A stretch of DNA of 10,262 bases. Origin: Bacteroidota bacterium. GTDB taxonomy: Bacteria; Bacteroidota; Bacteroidia; Bacteroidales; JADFUO01. Of the stretch, positions 2,051 to 8,892 are shown in pieces. The position numbers and the translations under genes were made by a program. Numbering within the stretch: the stretch's first letter is position 1; each line of letters begins with the position of its first letter. The DNA lies in NCBI GenBank assembly GCA_030614305.1, contig JAUWKH010000038.1:1-10262 (forward strand). The letters are read 5' to 3'. A model generated the notes under the pieces. It had not been told where the DNA came from and did no database searches. It worked only from the letters and a program-made list of their open reading frames with translations.

Positions 2051-2842
2051 TTATTTTTTCATTAGGATATTAACCACTGTTTCAATTATTTCGTGAGCAT
2101 TGGGGCTTTTTATTATAACTTCATCTGCACCGGCTTCCAAAGCTCTTTTCCTGGTTTCTTCTTCTTCATCGCCGGTAAATAAAATTAATTTTATGTTTTT
2201 GTATTCTTCTTCTTTACGTATTTGTGAACATAACTCAATTCCTGACAATATAGGAAGCATAAAATCAATAACAGCAGCAACCGGTTTTTCCTGTCTGATT
2301 AAATCAAGGCCTTCTTTACCGTTAACGGCAGTTACAGGTAAAAAGCCGTTTTTATAAAAAAGTCTGGCATATAAATGTAAAATAATAGGATTATCATCAA
2401 CAATAACGAGCTTTTTTAATTTCTTTGTTTTTTCTCCTAATTTATTTTCTTCAATAATTTTATCATCTACAACAAGTAACATATCGTCAACCTTTAATTT
2501 AATCTCAGGGTCAGGAAAGATAAAGTCGCGACCGATACGACGTAGTCCGAAAACTTCCCTGTTCATTTCATTTGATACTTCGGCTATTGTTTTTTCGAGC
2601 ATTCCCGAACCACTTTTAATAGTTATCCATTGTGGTGTAATTTCAGATGTTGCCGTAGGTTCGGTTAGGCCATAAGATATCCCTGTTCCACCAAGTACTG
2701 TATCAGCTATTTGTTTACCTGTTGACACATAAGGAGTAATAACTTTATCAGCTCCTGCACGAATAATTTTACTTTCTGATGAAATATCTTCGGCTCTTGA
2801 AATAATTTTCAGTGTGGGATTTAATTCACGGGCAGTAAGCAC
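2051..2842 (-). pseudogene. 5'-truncated RCK (TrkA) potassium-channel regulator fused to response-regulator receiver domain
   Basis: The 263-residue frame opens with LTARELNP..KIISRAED and AGADKVITPY (residues 2-37), which is the second half of a TrkA-N/RCK nucleotide-binding fold. A TrkA-C domain follows (about 68-127), then a linker and a full CheY-like receiver (about 144-263). The receiver has acidic pair Asp149/Asp150, phospho-acceptor Asp193, Thr223 and Lys245, all in expected places. Missing are the GxGxxG half of the RCK fold and any pore helices. The only start is a GTG at 2842, inside a conserved strand. Upstream in frame the codons still read NNLFLV, extending the RCK match, before a TAA at 2879-2881. 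I therefore read it as the 3' part of a longer channel- or RCK-receiver gene that lost its 5' end. Alternatively, it could be translated from the GTG as a TrkA-C/receiver protein. It lies last in the leftward run, 86 bases after the cyclase. Confidence 0.7.
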
Positions 2843-2928
2843 AAGAAATAAATTATTTATATATTTTACTATAATTTGTTAAATAATCAGTTCTTTTAAA
2901 TACGATAGAAATCAGTTATTCACTTATT

Positions 2929-3576
2929 TCAAACATCAATCATCCTGAACTCAGTTGGTTCGGGAACTCCTTTAAAATCTTCAATATACTTTTGTGAAAT
3001 TTTATCAAAACAAGTATTTTTTCGTTCTCCATATAAATTAAAATAATCAGCTTTTACTTTATTGTAAAATTTTTCACTCATTACTATCCTGTTAGCTTTT
3101 GCCTTTGACATTAAGCGGGCTGTTAAATCAATATCCTGTCCGTAATAATCATTAGCTCCTTTAAAAAATGTAATATTATAAACTTCAGTGCAATAATGAA
3201 TCGAAACCTTACAGTTAAGAAATACATTTTCAATTGGGTAATTTTTAATATTATCAATGGTAGCATAAATCTCTTCCAGCAAAGCGAAATAATCGTTATA
3301 TGTTGATTTTGCCTTTAAATCTTCATCAGGAATATAAAGCATTATTTCATCTCCTATCCCTTTAACAACATTATCAGGGAAGTCATTTAAAAAAGAAATA
3401 AAGTTAAAAGTGTTGTTTAGTTTTTTACCCCAGTCTGCTAAACTTGTGTTATATTTTATATCTGTTGAATTGATAATATCTATAAAAAAACATGTACCGG
3501 GGTATTTTGACAGTGAGCTAAGAACTTTTCCTATTTCTTTAGAGTTGGGATTTTTGAAATTTATGAATGTTACCAT
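2929..3576 (-). CDS. Class III adenylate/guanylate cyclase-like protein
   Basis: A 215-residue soluble protein that is essentially one class III cyclase catalytic domain, predicted to make a cyclic nucleotide from an NTP. The first metal-binding aspartate is Asp33 in FFIDIINST, and the second is Asp76 in the block VKGIGDEIM (71-79), which also supplies the likely base-contacting Lys72. The last active-site block, DYYGQDIDLTARL (143-155), contains Asp143 at the adenine-recognition position and transition-state Arg154. The usual Asn of the Asn-x3-Arg pair is Asp150 here, a deviation that may lower or alter activity. No membrane segment or sensor domain is attached, so it would work as a homodimer or be recruited by another protein. 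It begins 53 bases after the ABC ATPase on the same strand, with no Shine-Dalgarno site. Nucleotide specificity cannot be settled from sequence. Confidence 0.8.
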   Translation of the reverse strand: MVTFINFKNPNSKEIGKVLSSLSKYPGTCFFIDIINSTDIKYNTSLADWGKKLNNTFNFISFLNDFPDNVVKGIGDEIMLYIPDEDLKAKSTYNDYFALLEEIYATIDNIKNYPIENVFLNCKVSIHYCTEVYNITFFKGANDYYGQDIDLTARLMSKAKANRIVMSEKFYNKVKADYFNLYGERKNTCFDKISQKYIEDFKGVPEPTEFRMIDV

Positions 3577-3629
3577 AATTTATTTATTTAGTTTTGAAAA
3601 TCAATATTTCAGTATTCTTCCATTTGATT

Positions 3630-4442
3630 TTATATATAATTTTTCTCAAGCATTTCAGCGGTTGAAAGATTAATTTGTTCTTTTCGCCTGATTTCGTCAA
3701 ACAAAGACAAAAGATCATTTACTTTTAATCTTTTTTTATCATCACCTTCGAAATCATAAACAATTTTACCGTTATGCATCATTAAAATCCTGTTGCCCAT
3801 ATTAACAGCTTGTTGCATCGAATGTGTGACCATAAGTGTTGTAATATTGTCTTTTTCAACAACTTTTTCGGTTAGCTGAATAACTTTATTTGCTGTTTTG
3901 GGGTCTAATGCAGCAGTATGTTCATCAAGCAATAACAGCTTGGGTTTTTGCCATGATGCCATTAACAAAGTAAGTGCCTGACGTTGTCCACCTGATAATT
4001 TTCCCATAGGATTTTCAAGCCGGTCTTCCAATCTCATATTTAACGGTTTAACCCTTTTTTGAAATTCCTTTAAAACACTTTTGGGAATTGCCCATCCAAG
4101 TCCCCTACTCTGCCCTCTTTTTGATGCTAATGTTAGGTTTTCAGCTATAGTCATGTCAGGAGCGGTTCCTGTGAATGGATTTTGAAAAACCCTTCCGAGA
4201 TGTTTAGCTCTTTTGTATTCCGGAAATTTTGTAATATCCATCCTATCCAAAATAATTTTTCCTAAGTCAGGAATGAATGTTCCGGCTACTGCATTTAATA
4301 AAGAGGATTTGCCTGAACCGTTTGTTCCGACTATAGCAACAAAACTCCCTTCTTCTACTTCGCAACTTACACCCTGTAATGCTTTTACCTGATTTGCTGT
4401 GCCAGGGTTAAAAGTTTTGTAAATATTTATGATTTTTAACAT
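3630..4442 (-). CDS. ABC transporter ATP-binding protein (TrpZ-like)
   Basis: The 270-residue ATPase subunit of an ABC importer of the TrpXYZ type (PF04392 binding protein with a BPD_transp_2 permease). All nucleotide-binding motifs are intact: Walker A GTNGSGKS (39-46), Q-loop Gln87, signature LSGGQ (149-153), Walker B LLLLDE (169-174), D-loop to Asp180, and the switch His207 in MVTHS. It should bind the cytoplasmic face of the permease and power uptake. The ATG overlaps the permease stop by 7 bases, and the purine-rich stretch AAGAGGAAAGGG lies just upstream, so translational coupling is likely. Characterised relatives in streptococci move tryptophan, but the family is broad and the substrate here is unknown. 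Confidence 0.92.
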   Translation of the reverse strand: MLKIINIYKTFNPGTANQVKALQGVSCEVEEGSFVAIVGTNGSGKSSLLNAVAGTFIPDLGKIILDRMDITKFPEYKRAKHLGRVFQNPFTGTAPDMTIAENLTLASKRGQSRGLGWAIPKSVLKEFQKRVKPLNMRLEDRLENPMGKLSGGQRQALTLLMASWQKPKLLLLDEHTAALDPKTANKVIQLTEKVVEKDNITTLMVTHSMQQAVNMGNRILMMHNGKIVYDFEGDDKKRLKVNDLLSLFDEIRRKEQINLSTAEMLEKNYI

Positions 4443-5362
4443 ATCCCTTTCCTCTTAAACTTATTTAACATACCTGGCATTATCAGTGCAATAAATACAA
4501 ATAATGCAGTGATAATTTTCAGATCGTTAGGATTCATTCCCCAGCGAAGAGCAATAGCTACAAGCAATCTGAAAAGTATTGATCCCATAATAGCTCCGGT
4601 TATAAGTAATCCTAAACTTTTTTTACTTAATAATGCCTCACCAATAATTACACTTGCCAAACCCCATACAACCATACCTATACCCATCTGTACATCTGCA
4701 AATCCTTGGTATTGGGCTAAAAAAGCACCTGACAATGCAATTAAACCATTTGATATTGCCAGTCCCAGTATTATCATTAAATTTGTGTTAACTCCCAGTG
4801 CTTTGATCATTTGTTGATTATCGCCGGTAGCTCTCATTGCTGTCCCGAGGTTGGTTTTAAAAAACAGGTATATAATTATGCTTATTAAAATTATTGTAAT
4901 CAAAATAAATAATAATACGTAAATGTCTTTTTCGGATGCAGTCCAGCCCAAAATATTTATTGATTCAATATTGGGAGTGATAAAATCGGCAAATTGTTCA
5001 AAATAAGTTATCAGGGTAATATCGGATAGCAGAGGTACATTACTTCTGCCCATAACATGAAGATTAACTGAATATAATGCGGTCATGACAAGTATTCCTG
5101 CAAGTAAGCCGTTTATTTTAAATTTAGTATGTAGCAATCCTGTAATTCCACCGGCTACAAATCCTCCTGCAAATGCAAGTATAGTTGCTATTAAAGGATG
5201 AACGCCATACACAATCAATGAAGCTGCAATAGCTGCTCCGAGTGTAATTGAACCTTCGGTAGTAAGGTCAGGAAATTTGAATATCCTGAAACTTATATAT
5301 GATCCTACTGCCAGTAATGAAAGTATTAATCCGATGGTTATTGAGCCAATTAATAATGTCAT
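4436..5362 (-). CDS. ABC transporter permease, branched-chain amino acid type family (TrpY-like)
   Basis: A 308-residue, very hydrophobic inner-membrane protein with about eight to ten predicted transmembrane segments spread through its length. The N-terminal segment (about 5-30) is followed by FPDLTTEGSITLGAA (about 30-44). That stretch closely matches the conserved 'PDLTVEGSF.LGAA' motif of permeases partnered with PF04392-type binding proteins. The region RATGDNQQMIKALGVNT is the cytoplasmic coupling loop that contacts the ATPase. As the only permease gene in the locus, it probably forms a homodimer. The ATG at 5362 is preceded by GAGGG at a suitable distance. Its stop overlaps the ATPase start. 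A 221-bp spacer separates it from the STAS gene upstream, so it could have its own promoter, although I found no convincing one. Confidence 0.9.
   Translation of the reverse strand: MTLLIGSITIGLILSLLAVGSYISFRIFKFPDLTTEGSITLGAAIAASLIVYGVHPLIATILAFAGGFVAGGITGLLHTKFKINGLLAGILVMTALYSVNLHVMGRSNVPLLSDITLITYFEQFADFITPNIESINILGWTASEKDIYVLLFILITIILISIIIYLFFKTNLGTAMRATGDNQQMIKALGVNTNLMIILGLAISNGLIALSGAFLAQYQGFADVQMGIGMVVWGLASVIIGEALLSKKSLGLLITGAIMGSILFRLLVAIALRWGMNPNDLKIITALFVFIALIMPGMLNKFKRKGIC
4445..4454 (-). promoter_or_regulatory. Ribosome-binding site for the ABC ATPase
   Basis: On the - strand, GAGGAAAGGG precedes the ATG at 4442. Its AGGA lies about 7 bases from the start codon. It sits inside the permease coding end and supports the overlapping start. 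Clear Shine-Dalgarno sequences are rare elsewhere in this window. Confidence 0.6.
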
Positions 5363-5367
5363 TATAT

Positions 5368-5373
5368 CCCTCT
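5368..5373 (-). promoter_or_regulatory. Ribosome-binding site for the ABC permease
   Basis: AGAGGG on the - strand ends 5 bases before the ATG at 5362. It confirms that start and resembles the site in front of the ATPase, suggesting that the transporter pair is translated more strongly than its neighbours. Confidence 0.6.
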
Positions 5374-5502
5374 TTTATTATTTTACTTATATTATTCGAT
5401 TTAAACGAGTTTTATTAGTATCAGGATGATTGTTAAAAGTTATAAGTTATTAAAAAATCATATAACAATTAAGCTTTCATAAATAGTTTTCAGTAACTTC
5501 AT

Positions 5503-5560
5503 AAATCAAAAACCGTTAATTCTACCTGTCGGTAGACAGGCGATATTCTGAAATCAAAAA
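5503..5560. repeat. 10-bp direct repeats flanking the palindrome
   Basis: AAATCAAAAA occurs at 5503-5512 and again at 5551-5560, bracketing a 38-bp segment that contains the palindrome. This could be a target-site duplication left by insertion of a miniature element. In sequence this AT-rich, chance is also plausible. Confidence 0.4.
5522..5540. repeat. REP-like short palindrome
   Basis: CCTGTC-GGTA-GACAGG (5525-5540) is a perfect 6-bp stem with a 4-base loop. An alternative hairpin, CTACC-TGTC-GGTAG (5522-5535), overlaps it, so the RNA could adopt two mutually exclusive folds. It is markedly GC-richer than its surroundings. Short palindromes of this kind recur in many Bacteroidetes genomes and resemble REP elements mobilised by TnpA-REP (RAYT) transposases. 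No U-tract follows on either strand, so it does not look like an intrinsic terminator. Confidence 0.55.
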
Positions 5561-5583
5561 AACACATACTTTATGGACGAATA

Positions 5584-6834
5584 CTAATTATCTTTTATCA
5601 ATTCACTGACCTTTCCTATCCAGCATGTACCATTGATAAATTCACTTTCGCCCACTCCTATTATTTCCCGGTTGTCATTAATTAAATGAATGATATTTTG
5701 AATTTTATCCACTTCAAATAGGGATCTTATAGTTTTTGATAAATCAATATTTTCTTTTTTAACAGGATGATAATAAAAAATTGCAGAATGAAAATGTCCG
5801 TAAATCTCTTTTCCGGTTGATAACTGCCTTGTAAATGCTTTCAGATTTTTATCAATTTTATTAGAAGCTATTCCTATTGTTATTGATAACATTTTATTAA
5901 ACTCGGGTTCGGTAGTATAATTGATTTTATTCCTGATATCCGGAAATTGAAAGGGCGAACTGCCTTTACTGTTATCCATTGGTGATCTATTAATTGATGC
6001 ACCTACAATCCCCGATATCTCAGCTATCATAACCATTAGAAAAGTTTCGTATTCTGTAATTAGATTTATTGCATCAATAATTTCACTAAAAGCTACACTT
6101 TGATTTTTGTCAATAGTGTTAAATCGTATAAGATCATTAAATTTCCCGTCAAATATTAGTCCGTAAAGCAATTTTATTTCAGGTAAAAGTTTTCCTGTTT
6201 TAATAATATAATCAGGTTTGTTTGTGCCATCAGTTGGCATATATGCGACTGCATTATTTAATCCGATAAATTCACCGAACCTGTTTTTACAATCTTCAAA
6301 ACCTGTACCAATAGCTCCAAGACCTATCCCGAATTTATTTTCAAAAAATACCTCATTTTGAATATCCTGTTCTGAAAACCCTGAATCTTTTAACAGCTCA
6401 GGATTTCCTAATATTTTACACTTTACTGAAGTTTCTTTATTTAATTCCGAACATGTATATTTAGTTTTATTTATTTCAAATTCCTTTTCCTGTTCTTTTT
6501 TATCAACAAAATCAATTTTTGCAGGTTTTGTAAACATTTCGGTTAATCCAACCATTTCCAAAACCGATTTAACATTTTCTGATAATTCTGTAATTGTAAA
6601 AGTACCTTGAATACTTTTTAACTGCTTGTAGAACTTAACTAATATTCTTACACCTGCGGAGCTGATATAATTTACATGTTTTAAGTTAAGTGAGATATAA
6701 TAATGACCGGCACGTATTTCTTCATCAATAAAATCGCTTAAGTAGTTTGCCCAGTATGCATCAATTCTGCCACTTAAATGTAATTCAAGGATATTATCCC
6801 TGATTTTTTTTCTTATATCAAGTTTATCAATCAT
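5584..6834 (-). CDS. STAS-domain protein with unrecognised C-terminal region
   Basis: A 416-residue soluble protein. Residues about 1-105 form a STAS (anti-anti-sigma factor) domain, including LELHLSGRIDAYWAN (16-30) and YISSAGVRIL (56-65). By alignment with SpoIIAA-type proteins, Ser59 is the probable phospho-acceptor, so partner switching with a serine kinase or phosphatase is possible. After a charged linker (about 106-120), the remaining roughly 290 residues match nothing I can name. They include glycine-rich GIGLGAIGTG (about 169-178), a YMPTDGTNKPDY segment and a hydrophobic stretch FLMVMIAEISGIVGASINRS, which could form a degenerate phosphatase-like or other alpha/beta fold. No membrane segment is obvious. 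The start lies 5 bases after the stop of the binding-protein gene, so both are co-transcribed. It may relay binding-protein or transporter status to a regulator, but that is inference. No kinase or anti-sigma partner is visible in the window. Confidence 0.75.
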   Translation of the reverse strand: MIDKLDIRKKIRDNILELHLSGRIDAYWANYLSDFIDEEIRAGHYYISLNLKHVNYISSAGVRILVKFYKQLKSIQGTFTITELSENVKSVLEMVGLTEMFTKPAKIDFVDKKEQEKEFEINKTKYTCSELNKETSVKCKILGNPELLKDSGFSEQDIQNEVFFENKFGIGLGAIGTGFEDCKNRFGEFIGLNNAVAYMPTDGTNKPDYIIKTGKLLPEIKLLYGLIFDGKFNDLIRFNTIDKNQSVAFSEIIDAINLITEYETFLMVMIAEISGIVGASINRSPMDNSKGSSPFQFPDIRNKINYTTEPEFNKMLSITIGIASNKIDKNLKAFTRQLSTGKEIYGHFHSAIFYYHPVKKENIDLSKTIRSLFEVDKIQNIIHLINDNREIIGVGESEFINGTCWIGKVSELIKDN

Positions 6835-6839
6835 TTATT

Positions 6840-8804
6840 TTAATATAATATTTTATCAGCAGATTTAATAACATCTCCGCAAATATTTATTCCGTAAAAC
6901 TTTGCTGCATCAAGGTTAATAATAATATTTGTTTTACTAACAAATTCAAAAGGAATATCTTTTGGATTTTCACCCTTAAATATTTTATTTGCCAGATTAA
7001 CCGCATCAACTCCTGCCTGATAATAATCTCTTGCTACCACAGCAACTGCACCATCATTAGCTTGTTTGCTGACAAACCCGAAAAACGGAATATTAGCTTT
7101 TTTTGATATTTTTAAAATAGTTGGATAAGATGAAGAAGTAAGATTATCAACAATCTGGCAAATTGCATCCAAATCGTTTGATATTAATGATTTTGCAGCA
7201 TCAGTAACTTCAGAGCTTGAATTTACAGGAACAACTATCAGCTTCAATCCATATTGATTTGCATATTTTTCAAGTTCATCTTTATTATTTACCGAATTTA
7301 TTTCTCCAGGTGTAAATAATGTACCTATAGTTTTAGCATCGGGAAGTATTTGTTTTAATAATTTTATCATCCCTTCAAAATCACCTAAAGTTGAGATCCC
7401 TGTAAAGTTGGGTAAATGTTCGGTAAAGCTTTTGCCTGCACCTGCGATTATAGGATCTGCGACAACTGAAAAAACCACAGGGGTGTTTTTTATCTTTTTT
7501 GCTGCTGTTTGAAGCGTTGGTGTTGATGTTACAAAAACAAGGTCATAGTTTTCGGTTATTGTTGCATCAACTATCAAGTTAAGTGTGCTGATGTCGGCCT
7601 GTGCATTTCGTGCTGTCAGTTCAAAGTCAATTTCAGGTCGTAAACCTAAATTGACCAAAGCATCAATAATTCCTTCATGCGACGGCTCGGAAATTGGTGA
7701 ATCATTGTATTGGATTAATGTCAGATTCAGCTTTTTAGTAAGTTTAAGTTTTTCGGATTTAGCATTAATAAAATCAAAGATATCATCAGGAATCTGTATT
7801 TCTAATTTTTCAATTTTATCAAAATTAATATCAATATTTTCCTCAACAATATTTTCTATTGGAATATTTTCAGTATTCTCACCGAGCAAAACCCGAGCAA
7901 CCATAGGAGCGGTTTTATATCCTGTATGATACCAGCCGATTCCAATAGCTGCTGTTGCGCCCTTTTCAACAAATTCAATATCATTAACTATTAAAGGTAT
8001 TTTTGATCTATCCGTATTTTTAAGAATACCATCAAATGCCTGTAAAGAAGTGTTATCGCCGGTTATCCATAGCGCCTGTATATCTCTTGATGTTATCACC
8101 TGAGCAGCCTGATAAACTTCATTAGCATTCGTAACGGTCATTTCTTTTAATTTAATCCCTTTTTGTTTAAATAATTCTCTTGCTACACTCATAACTTTTC
8201 TTGAATTAGCCTCTGAAGAATTATAAATCGTTCCTACGGATTTGATGCCCGGCAATAATTTCTCAATAAAATTTATGGTTTGTTCAATTGGAGGAAAAGA
8301 ACCTACACCGGTAATATTAGGCAAATGATCAGAATAACTTTTACCTGCTCCTGCAGTAATTGGGTCGTAACAATATGTGAAGACAACATTTTTATTTTTA
8401 ATTGCAGCACACGCTCCTGTTAAACACGGAGTTGTCATTGTCATAATAAGGTCAACATCCTTATTATCCATATTTTGTAAAACAGGCTGTATATTACCTG
8501 TTTCGCCGTTAGCATGAGAAAATGTAACCTGCAGGTTGCTATCTTTTACAAAACCGATTTCTTTAAGTCCTGTGAATAAACCGTTAAATAAAATGTCAAG
8601 AGAAATATCGGGAGCAAAATAAACTATTCCGATTTTATATGTTTCACCAGGTTCTGCAAAAAATTCGGATCTATGTTTTATATCAAAAAATCTATTTTCT
8701 TTTTTTTGCTTATTACGATTATTTAAATCTGAAAAAAGCAATATTGCAGCAATAATAACAATTAATAATATTCCTTTATATAAGTGTTTTATGTAATCAA
8801 ACAT
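6840..8804 (-). CDS. Membrane-anchored tandem ABC substrate-binding protein (two TrpX-like domains)
   Basis: A 654-residue protein made of two PF04392-type periplasmic-binding domains in series (about 57-340 and 360-654). Members with one domain are roughly half this length. Internal duplication is clear: DPITAGAGKSYSDHLPNITG (147-166) matches DPIIAGAGKSFTEHLPNFTG (450-469), and each domain has a comparable 'VGTIYN/IGTLFT' strand and a C-terminal 'LLGEN..NIP/FKGEN..DIP' block. A hydrophobic helix (about 11-25) has no lipobox cysteine and no good cleavage site, so the protein is probably tethered. Positive residues lie on both sides of the helix, leaving topology ambiguous. It presumably delivers ligand to the permease encoded downstream, or senses it. 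The substrate is unknown; tryptophan is one precedent for the family. It is the first gene of the leftward run, its ATG has no Shine-Dalgarno site, and the STAS gene follows after 5 bases. Confidence 0.9.
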   Translation of the reverse strand: MFDYIKHLYKGILLIVIIAAILLFSDLNNRNKQKKENRFFDIKHRSEFFAEPGETYKIGIVYFAPDISLDILFNGLFTGLKEIGFVKDSNLQVTFSHANGETGNIQPVLQNMDNKDVDLIMTMTTPCLTGACAAIKNKNVVFTYCYDPITAGAGKSYSDHLPNITGVGSFPPIEQTINFIEKLLPGIKSVGTIYNSSEANSRKVMSVARELFKQKGIKLKEMTVTNANEVYQAAQVITSRDIQALWITGDNTSLQAFDGILKNTDRSKIPLIVNDIEFVEKGATAAIGIGWYHTGYKTAPMVARVLLGENTENIPIENIVEENIDINFDKIEKLEIQIPDDIFDFINAKSEKLKLTKKLNLTLIQYNDSPISEPSHEGIIDALVNLGLRPEIDFELTARNAQADISTLNLIVDATITENYDLVFVTSTPTLQTAAKKIKNTPVVFSVVADPIIAGAGKSFTEHLPNFTGISTLGDFEGMIKLLKQILPDAKTIGTLFTPGEINSVNNKDELEKYANQYGLKLIVVPVNSSSEVTDAAKSLISNDLDAICQIVDNLTSSSYPTILKISKKANIPFFGFVSKQANDGAVAVVARDYYQAGVDAVNLANKIFKGENPKDIPFEFVSKTNIIINLDAAKFYGINICGDVIKSADKILY

Positions 8805-8892
8805 TTTTAAATCCGAATTAAAATGTAAAATTAACTATTAAATTTATTTTATTACTTTTATATTGTTATTTTTGTAATTTAATAAAATAAAC
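8805..8892. promoter_or_regulatory. Divergent intergenic region between binding-protein and TPR genes
   Basis: These 88 very AT-rich bases separate two divergently transcribed genes and must hold the start signals for both unless transcripts enter from outside. A rightward promoter element is recognisable. I found no TAnnTTTG element for the leftward operon. Confidence 0.6.
8843..8874 (+). promoter_or_regulatory. Bacteroidetes-type promoter for the TPR gene
   Basis: TATTTTTG at 8867-8874 is an exact match to the Bacteroidetes primary-sigma -7 consensus TAnnTTTG. TTTA at 8843-8846 is a near match to the -33 TTTG at about the right distance. Transcription would begin near 8879, leaving a leader of about 14 bases before the TTG start. 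The consensus is established knowledge; use of this site is inferred. Confidence 0.5.

Follow-up and report, generated by a model that had tools for sequence, protein, structure and literature searches.

The window analyzed here is the whole of contig C265 (JAUWKH010000038.1; 10,262 nucleotides) from a Bacteroidota genome of 2.14 Mb in 413 contigs that is 81% complete, and its minus strand carries an operon for an ABC importer in which a gene for a STAS-domain protein, termed STAS-ALDC below, lies between the genes for the substrate-binding protein (SBP) and the permease. The left end of the window is occupied on the plus strand by genes for a [NiFe] hydrogenase large subunit and its maturation protease; these are followed on the minus strand, from left to right, by an RCK-receiver open reading frame (ORF), a class III cyclase homologue, an ABC ATPase, the permease, the STAS protein, and a 654-residue SBP, and then on the plus strand by a gene for a TPR-like protein (by eye). 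The six minus-strand genes were described in an earlier note made from the sequence alone, and their order, coordinates, and common strand are correct, while their domains are borne out by Pfam matches to ABC_sub_bind, STAS, BPD_transp_2, ABC_tran, Guanylate_cyc (weak), and TrkA_N plus Response_reg. Read in the direction of transcription, the operon consists of the SBP gene (6840-8804), the STAS-ALDC gene (5584-6834, 416 residues), the permease gene (4436-5362, 308 residues; BPD_transp_2, 2.8e-26), and the ATPase gene (3630-4442, 270 residues; ABC_tran, 1.6e-27). The STAS-ALDC start does follow the SBP stop by 5 bp (6835-6839), as the same note had it, while 221 bp separate STAS-ALDC from the permease gene and the permease and ATPase genes overlap by 7 bp; the further gaps are 53 bp from ATPase to cyclase and 86 bp from cyclase to RCK-receiver. 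Within the STAS-permease gap (5525-5540) lies a hairpin-forming 16-mer, CCTGTCGGTAGACAGG, with five copies in the genome versus none for the reversed control.

The importer itself can be assigned to the TrpXYZ type, as had been proposed, with a PF04392 SBP, a PF02653 permease, and an ABC ATPase encoded within one operon. The SBP possesses two tandem TrpX-like PF04392 domains (residues ~57-342 and ~360-645; 9.2e-112) behind an N-terminal hydrophobic stretch that, judged by eye, is likely an anchor or signal. Its two domains together score 374.5 bits against the tryptophan SBP equivalog NF041285, below the cutoff of 390, and its relatives in the PDB include 3lkv, 6hni, and 3lft. The number of tandem domains varies, with one, two, three, or four found in 24, 30, 6, and 1 of 61 complete ORFs, respectively. 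Based on the known fold of these relatives and on gene context, the importer probably takes up an aromatic amino acid or a small molecule like it.

The STAS domain of STAS-ALDC covers residues ~1-105 (5.4e-18) and is the only domain that Pfam finds in the protein. STAS-ALDC passes the STAS superfamily model TIGR00377 (70.1 bits, cutoff 53.45), and reaches neither the narrower SpoIIAA model (46.7 versus 114.75 bits) nor the NCBIfam model for MlaB, NF033618 (22.4 versus 90 bits). Ser59, which we take to be the counterpart of SpoIIAA Ser58, is present in 102/102 alignment rows, and Asp25 is also conserved. A protein search returned 174 relatives at an E value of 0.001, and among the matches listed (120 of the 174) identity ranges from 35 to 98% over 91-100% of the query, indicating that the C-terminal 300 residues are conserved too. 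This C-terminal domain (~115-416) is predicted to adopt a fold common to acetolactate decarboxylase (ALDC) and PTD012 (AF2 pLDDT 92; Foldseek/VIA). Residues E188, D208, H347, and H349 are present in all 103 rows and H383 in 102 of 102, so that one HxH (347, 349) and a further histidine are invariant, though they differ from the zinc-ligand HxH...H pattern of ALDC, the first histidine of which is replaced by V, I, L, or M in every one of 102 rows (by eye).

Sequence comparison did not recover the relationship that the predicted fold suggests. The ALDC family PF03306 was not among the Pfam matches at an E value of 10 in 39 C-terminal domains scanned, a result to which HMMER filters apply, and was matched in one of 60 relatives searched; PDB sequences searched with a C-terminal profile gave chance matches only, and hhalign of this profile against PF03306 returned a probability of 0.8% (E 0.07), with the aligned motifs nevertheless in the expected order. 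A canonical acetolactate decarboxylase was rejected on the strength of the PF03306 and hhalign results, and a degenerate PP2C/SpoIIE phosphatase was rejected when the fold search returned ALDC instead. The C-terminal part of STAS-ALDC represents a domain family that is not in Pfam, with the fold of acetolactate decarboxylase placed next to a STAS domain.

A 12-row alignment, used to scan species genomes, detected 385 relatives, and the loci counted here are the best 80 by STAS similarity, with gene order scored by tblastn in which the proteins encoded in the window served as queries. The permease gene begins no more than 450 bp downstream of the STAS-ALDC gene in 78 of 79 evaluable loci (one is cut by a contig end), the SBP gene ends no more than 450 bp upstream of it in 71 of 76 (four cut), and the ATPase gene begins no more than 500 bp from the permease gene in 71 of 75 (five cut). 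Departures from this order are few: the SBP gene follows the ATPase gene in L051 and L070 and is missing from just upstream of the STAS-ALDC gene in L036, L062, and L067, the ATPase gene of L046 lies 4.4 kb further on, the permease of L066 is in two pieces, and L081 and L050 have no ATPase match and no permease, respectively. By record titles and tree labels, the carriers belong to the Bacteroidota, Acidobacteriota, Verrucomicrobiota, Planctomycetota, Myxococcota, Pseudomonadota, Nitrospirota, Lentisphaerota, Sumerlaeota, and Dependentiae; most of their genomes were assembled from metagenomes, and some of the names, namely Klebsiella and Akkermansia, seem to be misassigned. Among whole genomes of the neighbourhood the gene is uncommon, being present in 8 of 99, the window's own genome counted. 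It is rare in a phylum-wide sample of 395 genomes, with eight matches, four of them full length (our own and three at 27-28% identity) and four short and STAS-only, and this search may miss relatives, since at most four candidates were scored per genome.

The linkage also holds when approached from the permease. Among 295 genomes of the order, 19 permeases were found at an E value of 1e-30, the window's included, and 18 of these adjoin a STAS gene; among 247 genomes of the phylum of G700, a STAS gene is present at all 11 permease places, in nine genomes. In a permease tree of 107 rows, 97 STAS-bearing permeases and one nested loss form a single clade (ultrafast bootstrap 97, SH-aLRT 90, with the bootstrap not fully settled), and two changes of the STAS-presence character suffice. 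Of the tree's rows 106 are different, L075 and L152 being one contig fetched twice, and the tree omits six loci in which the permease match has no long stretch (L050, L056, L057, L065, L066, and L092). Some plasmid rows are long branches; removal of three of them leaves the split in place with an SH-aLRT of 82. Nine plasmid relatives (from the 9 of 75 plasmid records that were examined), 37-47% identical, have no STAS gene within 3-5 kb, and two of the nine adjoin genes of aromatic amino acid catabolism (homogentisate and kynureninase). A divergent branch (L104-L106, L144, L179, and L180) has kept a STAS gene whose product is 24-27% identical, in the order STAS, permease, SBP, ATPase, with the permease and SBP fused in the one example scanned.

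Taken together, the locus counts, the reverse tests, and the permease tree show that the placement of the STAS gene between SBP and permease, to which the earlier note had drawn attention, is no accident, and that the gene is a conserved, clade-defining part of the importer across phyla. We conclude that STAS-ALDC is very probably a conserved, dedicated subunit of the importer. The conserved-neighbourhood check proposed in that note came out in two parts: association of the STAS gene with PF04392 SBPs recurs across phyla, but the expected association with a class III cyclase does not, as no cyclase homologue was detected in any of the 80 loci (E 1e-3).

Genes of the partner-switching type are found near many of these operons. 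When neighbouring ORFs were clustered by BLAST, with a few members of each cluster scanned with Pfam, the clusters that came after the operon genes themselves were small STAS proteins (28/80 loci), HATPase_c_2 kinases (26/80), and SpoIIE phosphatases (23/80). At least one of the three is present in 35 loci and none within the flanks of the other 45, where some flanks are short; thinned to 57 groups at 70% identity, the kinase is present in 20 groups and any of the three in 26. Two of five phosphatases scanned possess dCache-HAMP and three a receiver domain. In L062, the genes for the kinase, the small STAS protein, and STAS-ALDC directly follow one another. Kinase density was controlled for in the genomes of 41 of the 80 loci, picked for long flanks, with in-locus matches assigned by reading. 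These genomes hold 2-45 Pfam matches to the kinase family each, and at least 23 of the 41 have a match within the locus, where density predicts 2.0 (Poisson P 5e-17), while the genome's best-scoring kinase falls within the locus in 21, where 0.17 would be expected; these P values are rough owing to gene clustering and relatedness. A permease-fused kinase in L061 would raise the 23 to 24, and a kinase-cluster profile run on ORFs recovers 21 of the 23, with L052 and L098 resting on the Pfam control alone. This strong clustering supports the part of the earlier proposal that tied ligand binding or transport to partner switching, and we regard a link between the STAS-ALDC importer and partner switching as likely.

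Three further kinds of gene were seen in these neighbourhoods. Xanthine/uracil-type permeases fused to a HATPase_c_2 kinase are encoded near the operons at L061:11983-13701 and L067:32-1849, and their cluster also has members in L063 and L053. A protein of ~750 residues that joins a STAS domain at its N terminus to an APH-like/TCAD9 kinase domain (cluster 9, one member scanned) is present in 8/80 loci, e.g., at L030:6868-9126. A gene for an NMT1-type binding protein (one scanned) is found in 12/80 loci, e.g., at L073:3312-6234 and in L062 and L077, and stands directly before the SpoIIE phosphatase gene in 10 of these 12, which suggests a paired extracellular sensor.

From the operon and its conservation, the single permease clade, the conserved residues and predicted fold of STAS-ALDC, and the partner-switch enrichment, all of them computed, we infer a possible mechanism. 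The STAS domain would dock on the importer's ATPase, as MlaB does on MlaF, and set the assembly or activity of the transporter; the HATPase_c_2 kinase would phosphorylate Ser59, breaking the STAS-ATPase contact and releasing STAS-ALDC, and the SpoIIE-type phosphatase would reverse this phosphorylation. The ALDC-fold domain would bind the imported compound or a metal, providing cytosolic feedback. We hold with moderate confidence that window 3630-8804 as a whole encodes a TrpXYZ-type importer with a cytosolic, phosphorylation-switched STAS-ALDC regulatory subunit that docks on the ATPase. Gating of transport through such docking, by analogy with Mla, seems to us evenly poised, and that the ALDC-fold domain is a ligand sensor rather than an enzyme may be true with about the same confidence. 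More tentatively, and with less than even confidence, an importer clade spread over about ten phyla might be controlled as a whole by a kinase and phosphatase of the partner-switching type that reversibly phosphorylate a serine of the dedicated STAS subunit. Its ALDC-fold domain, by means of a metal site that has been re-sited, would then sense the imported substrate, and an extracellular or receiver-borne signal (from a dCache- or receiver-SpoIIE phosphatase) and a cytosolic one would meet on one subunit. The presence, in the importer of distantly related bacteria, of an extra protein with a switch domain and an enzyme-like domain suggests that uptake may be subject to a form of on-off control that has yet to be described.

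Several observations weigh against this interpretation. The fully conserved histidines and acids of STAS-ALDC would fit an enzyme as well. In the order sample, a single genome, G675, has the SBP, permease, and ATPase genes without a STAS gene. Kinase and small STAS genes occur together in only 22/80 loci (16 of the 57 groups), and the nearby kinase might serve only the adjoining small STAS protein. The window's own genome has its partner-switch genes away from the operon: a receiver-SpoIIE phosphatase, a HATPase_c_2 kinase, and a small STAS protein are encoded together on a different contig (G000:C387; L107:4488-6435).

Signals could instead flow in the reverse direction, with the importer acting as a sensor and STAS-ALDC, its C-terminal domain occupied by the imported ligand, sequestering the HATPase_c_2 kinase in the manner of an anti-anti-sigma factor to change gene expression. 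RsbR combines a ligand-type domain with a STAS domain, and STAS-ALDC resembles it in this respect; kinase and small STAS genes do lie near the operon, and a cluster of ECF-type sigma genes (cluster 11, one member scanned) is present in 4/83 loci. Sigma factor genes are rare nearby, and in most loci the STAS-ALDC gene is flanked by those for the SBP and the permease and is not placed with the kinase, making this reading unlikely in our view. A second alternative is that the ALDC-fold domain is a metal enzyme acting on the incoming compound, with the STAS domain merely tethering it to the transporter. The enzyme-like conservation of its acidic residues and histidines and the fold shared with acetolactate decarboxylase and PTD012 would be consistent with this, but the first histidine of the ALDC motif has been replaced, PF03306 is unmatched, and tethering alone leaves the invariant switch serine unexplained; we consider a tethered enzyme improbable.

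The earlier note had also raised the possibility that all six minus-strand genes form one functional unit, in which uptake of the ligand governs partner switching and, by way of the cyclase and the RCK-receiver protein, the output of a cyclic nucleotide. The common strand and short gaps in the window are what such a unit would show, but the proposal is largely refuted by comparison with other genomes and we reject it as very improbable. Aside from the lack of a cyclase in the 80 importer loci, the RCK part is present in only one of them. The class III cyclase homologue (2929-3576, minus strand, 215 residues; Guanylate_cyc, a weak match at 2.5e-7) is found in all three genomes of the same genus, at 99% and 96% identity in two and as two partial pieces in the third, and all three lack both the STAS protein and the permease. 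Two stretches of the window, 3591-8815 and 1958-2930, are missing from the sister genome G001, where the genes for the hydrogenase protease, the cyclase, and the TPR protein form an uninterrupted row; in G002 the cyclase gene likewise adjoins the TPR gene, and the stretch missing there is ~3618-8818. The four-gene operon is therefore a discrete 5.2-kb indel between the cyclase and TPR genes, delimited at 3591-8815 by blastn against L138 and L139 and by the junction letters. A chimeric contig was rejected as the source of this arrangement: the sequences on either side of the indel match one and the same sister contig at 92-97%, and a chimera would take two false joins, each at an orthologous site.

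The RCK-receiver gene (2051-2842, minus strand) belongs to the second, separate piece absent from G001. TrkA_N and Response_reg domains were found in its product, as claimed, with TrkA_C below cutoff, but the ORF is a 5'-truncated remnant: its TrkA_N match starts at profile position 81 of 116, homology extends upstream of the GTG towards a stop, and a relative in G079:C41, 68% identical, has a 457-residue frame that includes the missing N-terminal part. The gene run in the window is thus composite. The cyclase is a native neighbour outside the importer unit, it and the RCK-receiver remnant are bystanders of the importer, and a cyclic-nucleotide output coupled to uptake is not upheld. That the STAS gene is itself a hitch-hiker with no role in transport would fit the single order-sample genome that lost it and kept the importer, but is scarcely credible given that the linkage is almost universal in carriers labelled with about ten phyla and that the permeases form a single clade.

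Orthologues of the cyclase in G055 (L141:7903-9646) and G078 (L143:8283-9691) are encoded directly after genes for a HATPase_c_2 kinase and a small STAS protein; Pfam supports the kinase in each genome and the STAS protein in G055. As these orthologues follow HATPase_c_2 and STAS genes of their own, the cyclase may belong to a partner switch elsewhere and not to this importer, and a partner-switch-to-cyclase cassette is possible from the gene order. The window cyclase has the motif IDLTARL, as does the L141 orthologue, and that of L143 has IDLSARL; an Asn is usual at this site in class III cyclases, and the activity of the window cyclase may be altered.

A comparison of this importer with known systems shows both likenesses and differences. 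Like the partner switches RsbV/SpoIIAA-RsbW/SpoIIAB-RsbU/SpoIIE, it involves a STAS fold with a switch serine, and many of its operons have genes for a HATPase_c_2 kinase, a small STAS protein, and a SpoIIE phosphatase in their vicinity; unlike RsbV and SpoIIAA, STAS-ALDC has a fused domain, is encoded in a transporter operon, and has no regular sigma factor nearby. Unlike acetolactate decarboxylase and PTD012 (C11orf54), to which it has no significant sequence match, it possesses another histidine pattern (by eye) and is fused to a STAS domain. The PF04392 SBP, PF02653 permease, and ABC ATPase are those of TrpXYZ-type aromatic amino acid importers, whereas the canonical relatives examined (9/9) have no STAS gene, and STAS-bearing importers differ further in the one to four tandem domains of their SBPs and in the permease-SBP fusion of the divergent branch. 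As a kind, a STAS protein that serves as subunit in an ABC transporter has a precedent in the Mla system. The passages on MlaFB in PMC7367683 describe the STAS domain of MlaB binding the ATPase MlaF via the surface that holds the phospho-site equivalent, a contact needed for assembly and called unprecedented among structurally characterised ABC transporters; in those passages, control of the contact by phosphorylation is left open. Both STAS proteins are encoded within an ABC transporter operon, but MlaB is a minimal single STAS domain of the phospholipid transporter MlaFEDB, while STAS-ALDC carries a 300-residue ALDC-fold domain and serves a TrpXYZ-type importer with binding proteins. A search of the open-access literature found no description of a STAS-ALDC importer system, and what appears to be new is the class of importer, the domain fused to the STAS domain, and the partner-switch setting. 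The question of phosphorylation is directly testable in this family, as a candidate kinase and phosphatase are encoded near the operon in a good part of the loci. The STAS-ALDC family provides a second, independent, and widespread pairing of STAS and ABC proteins, in this case in solute importers and with an invariant switch serine.

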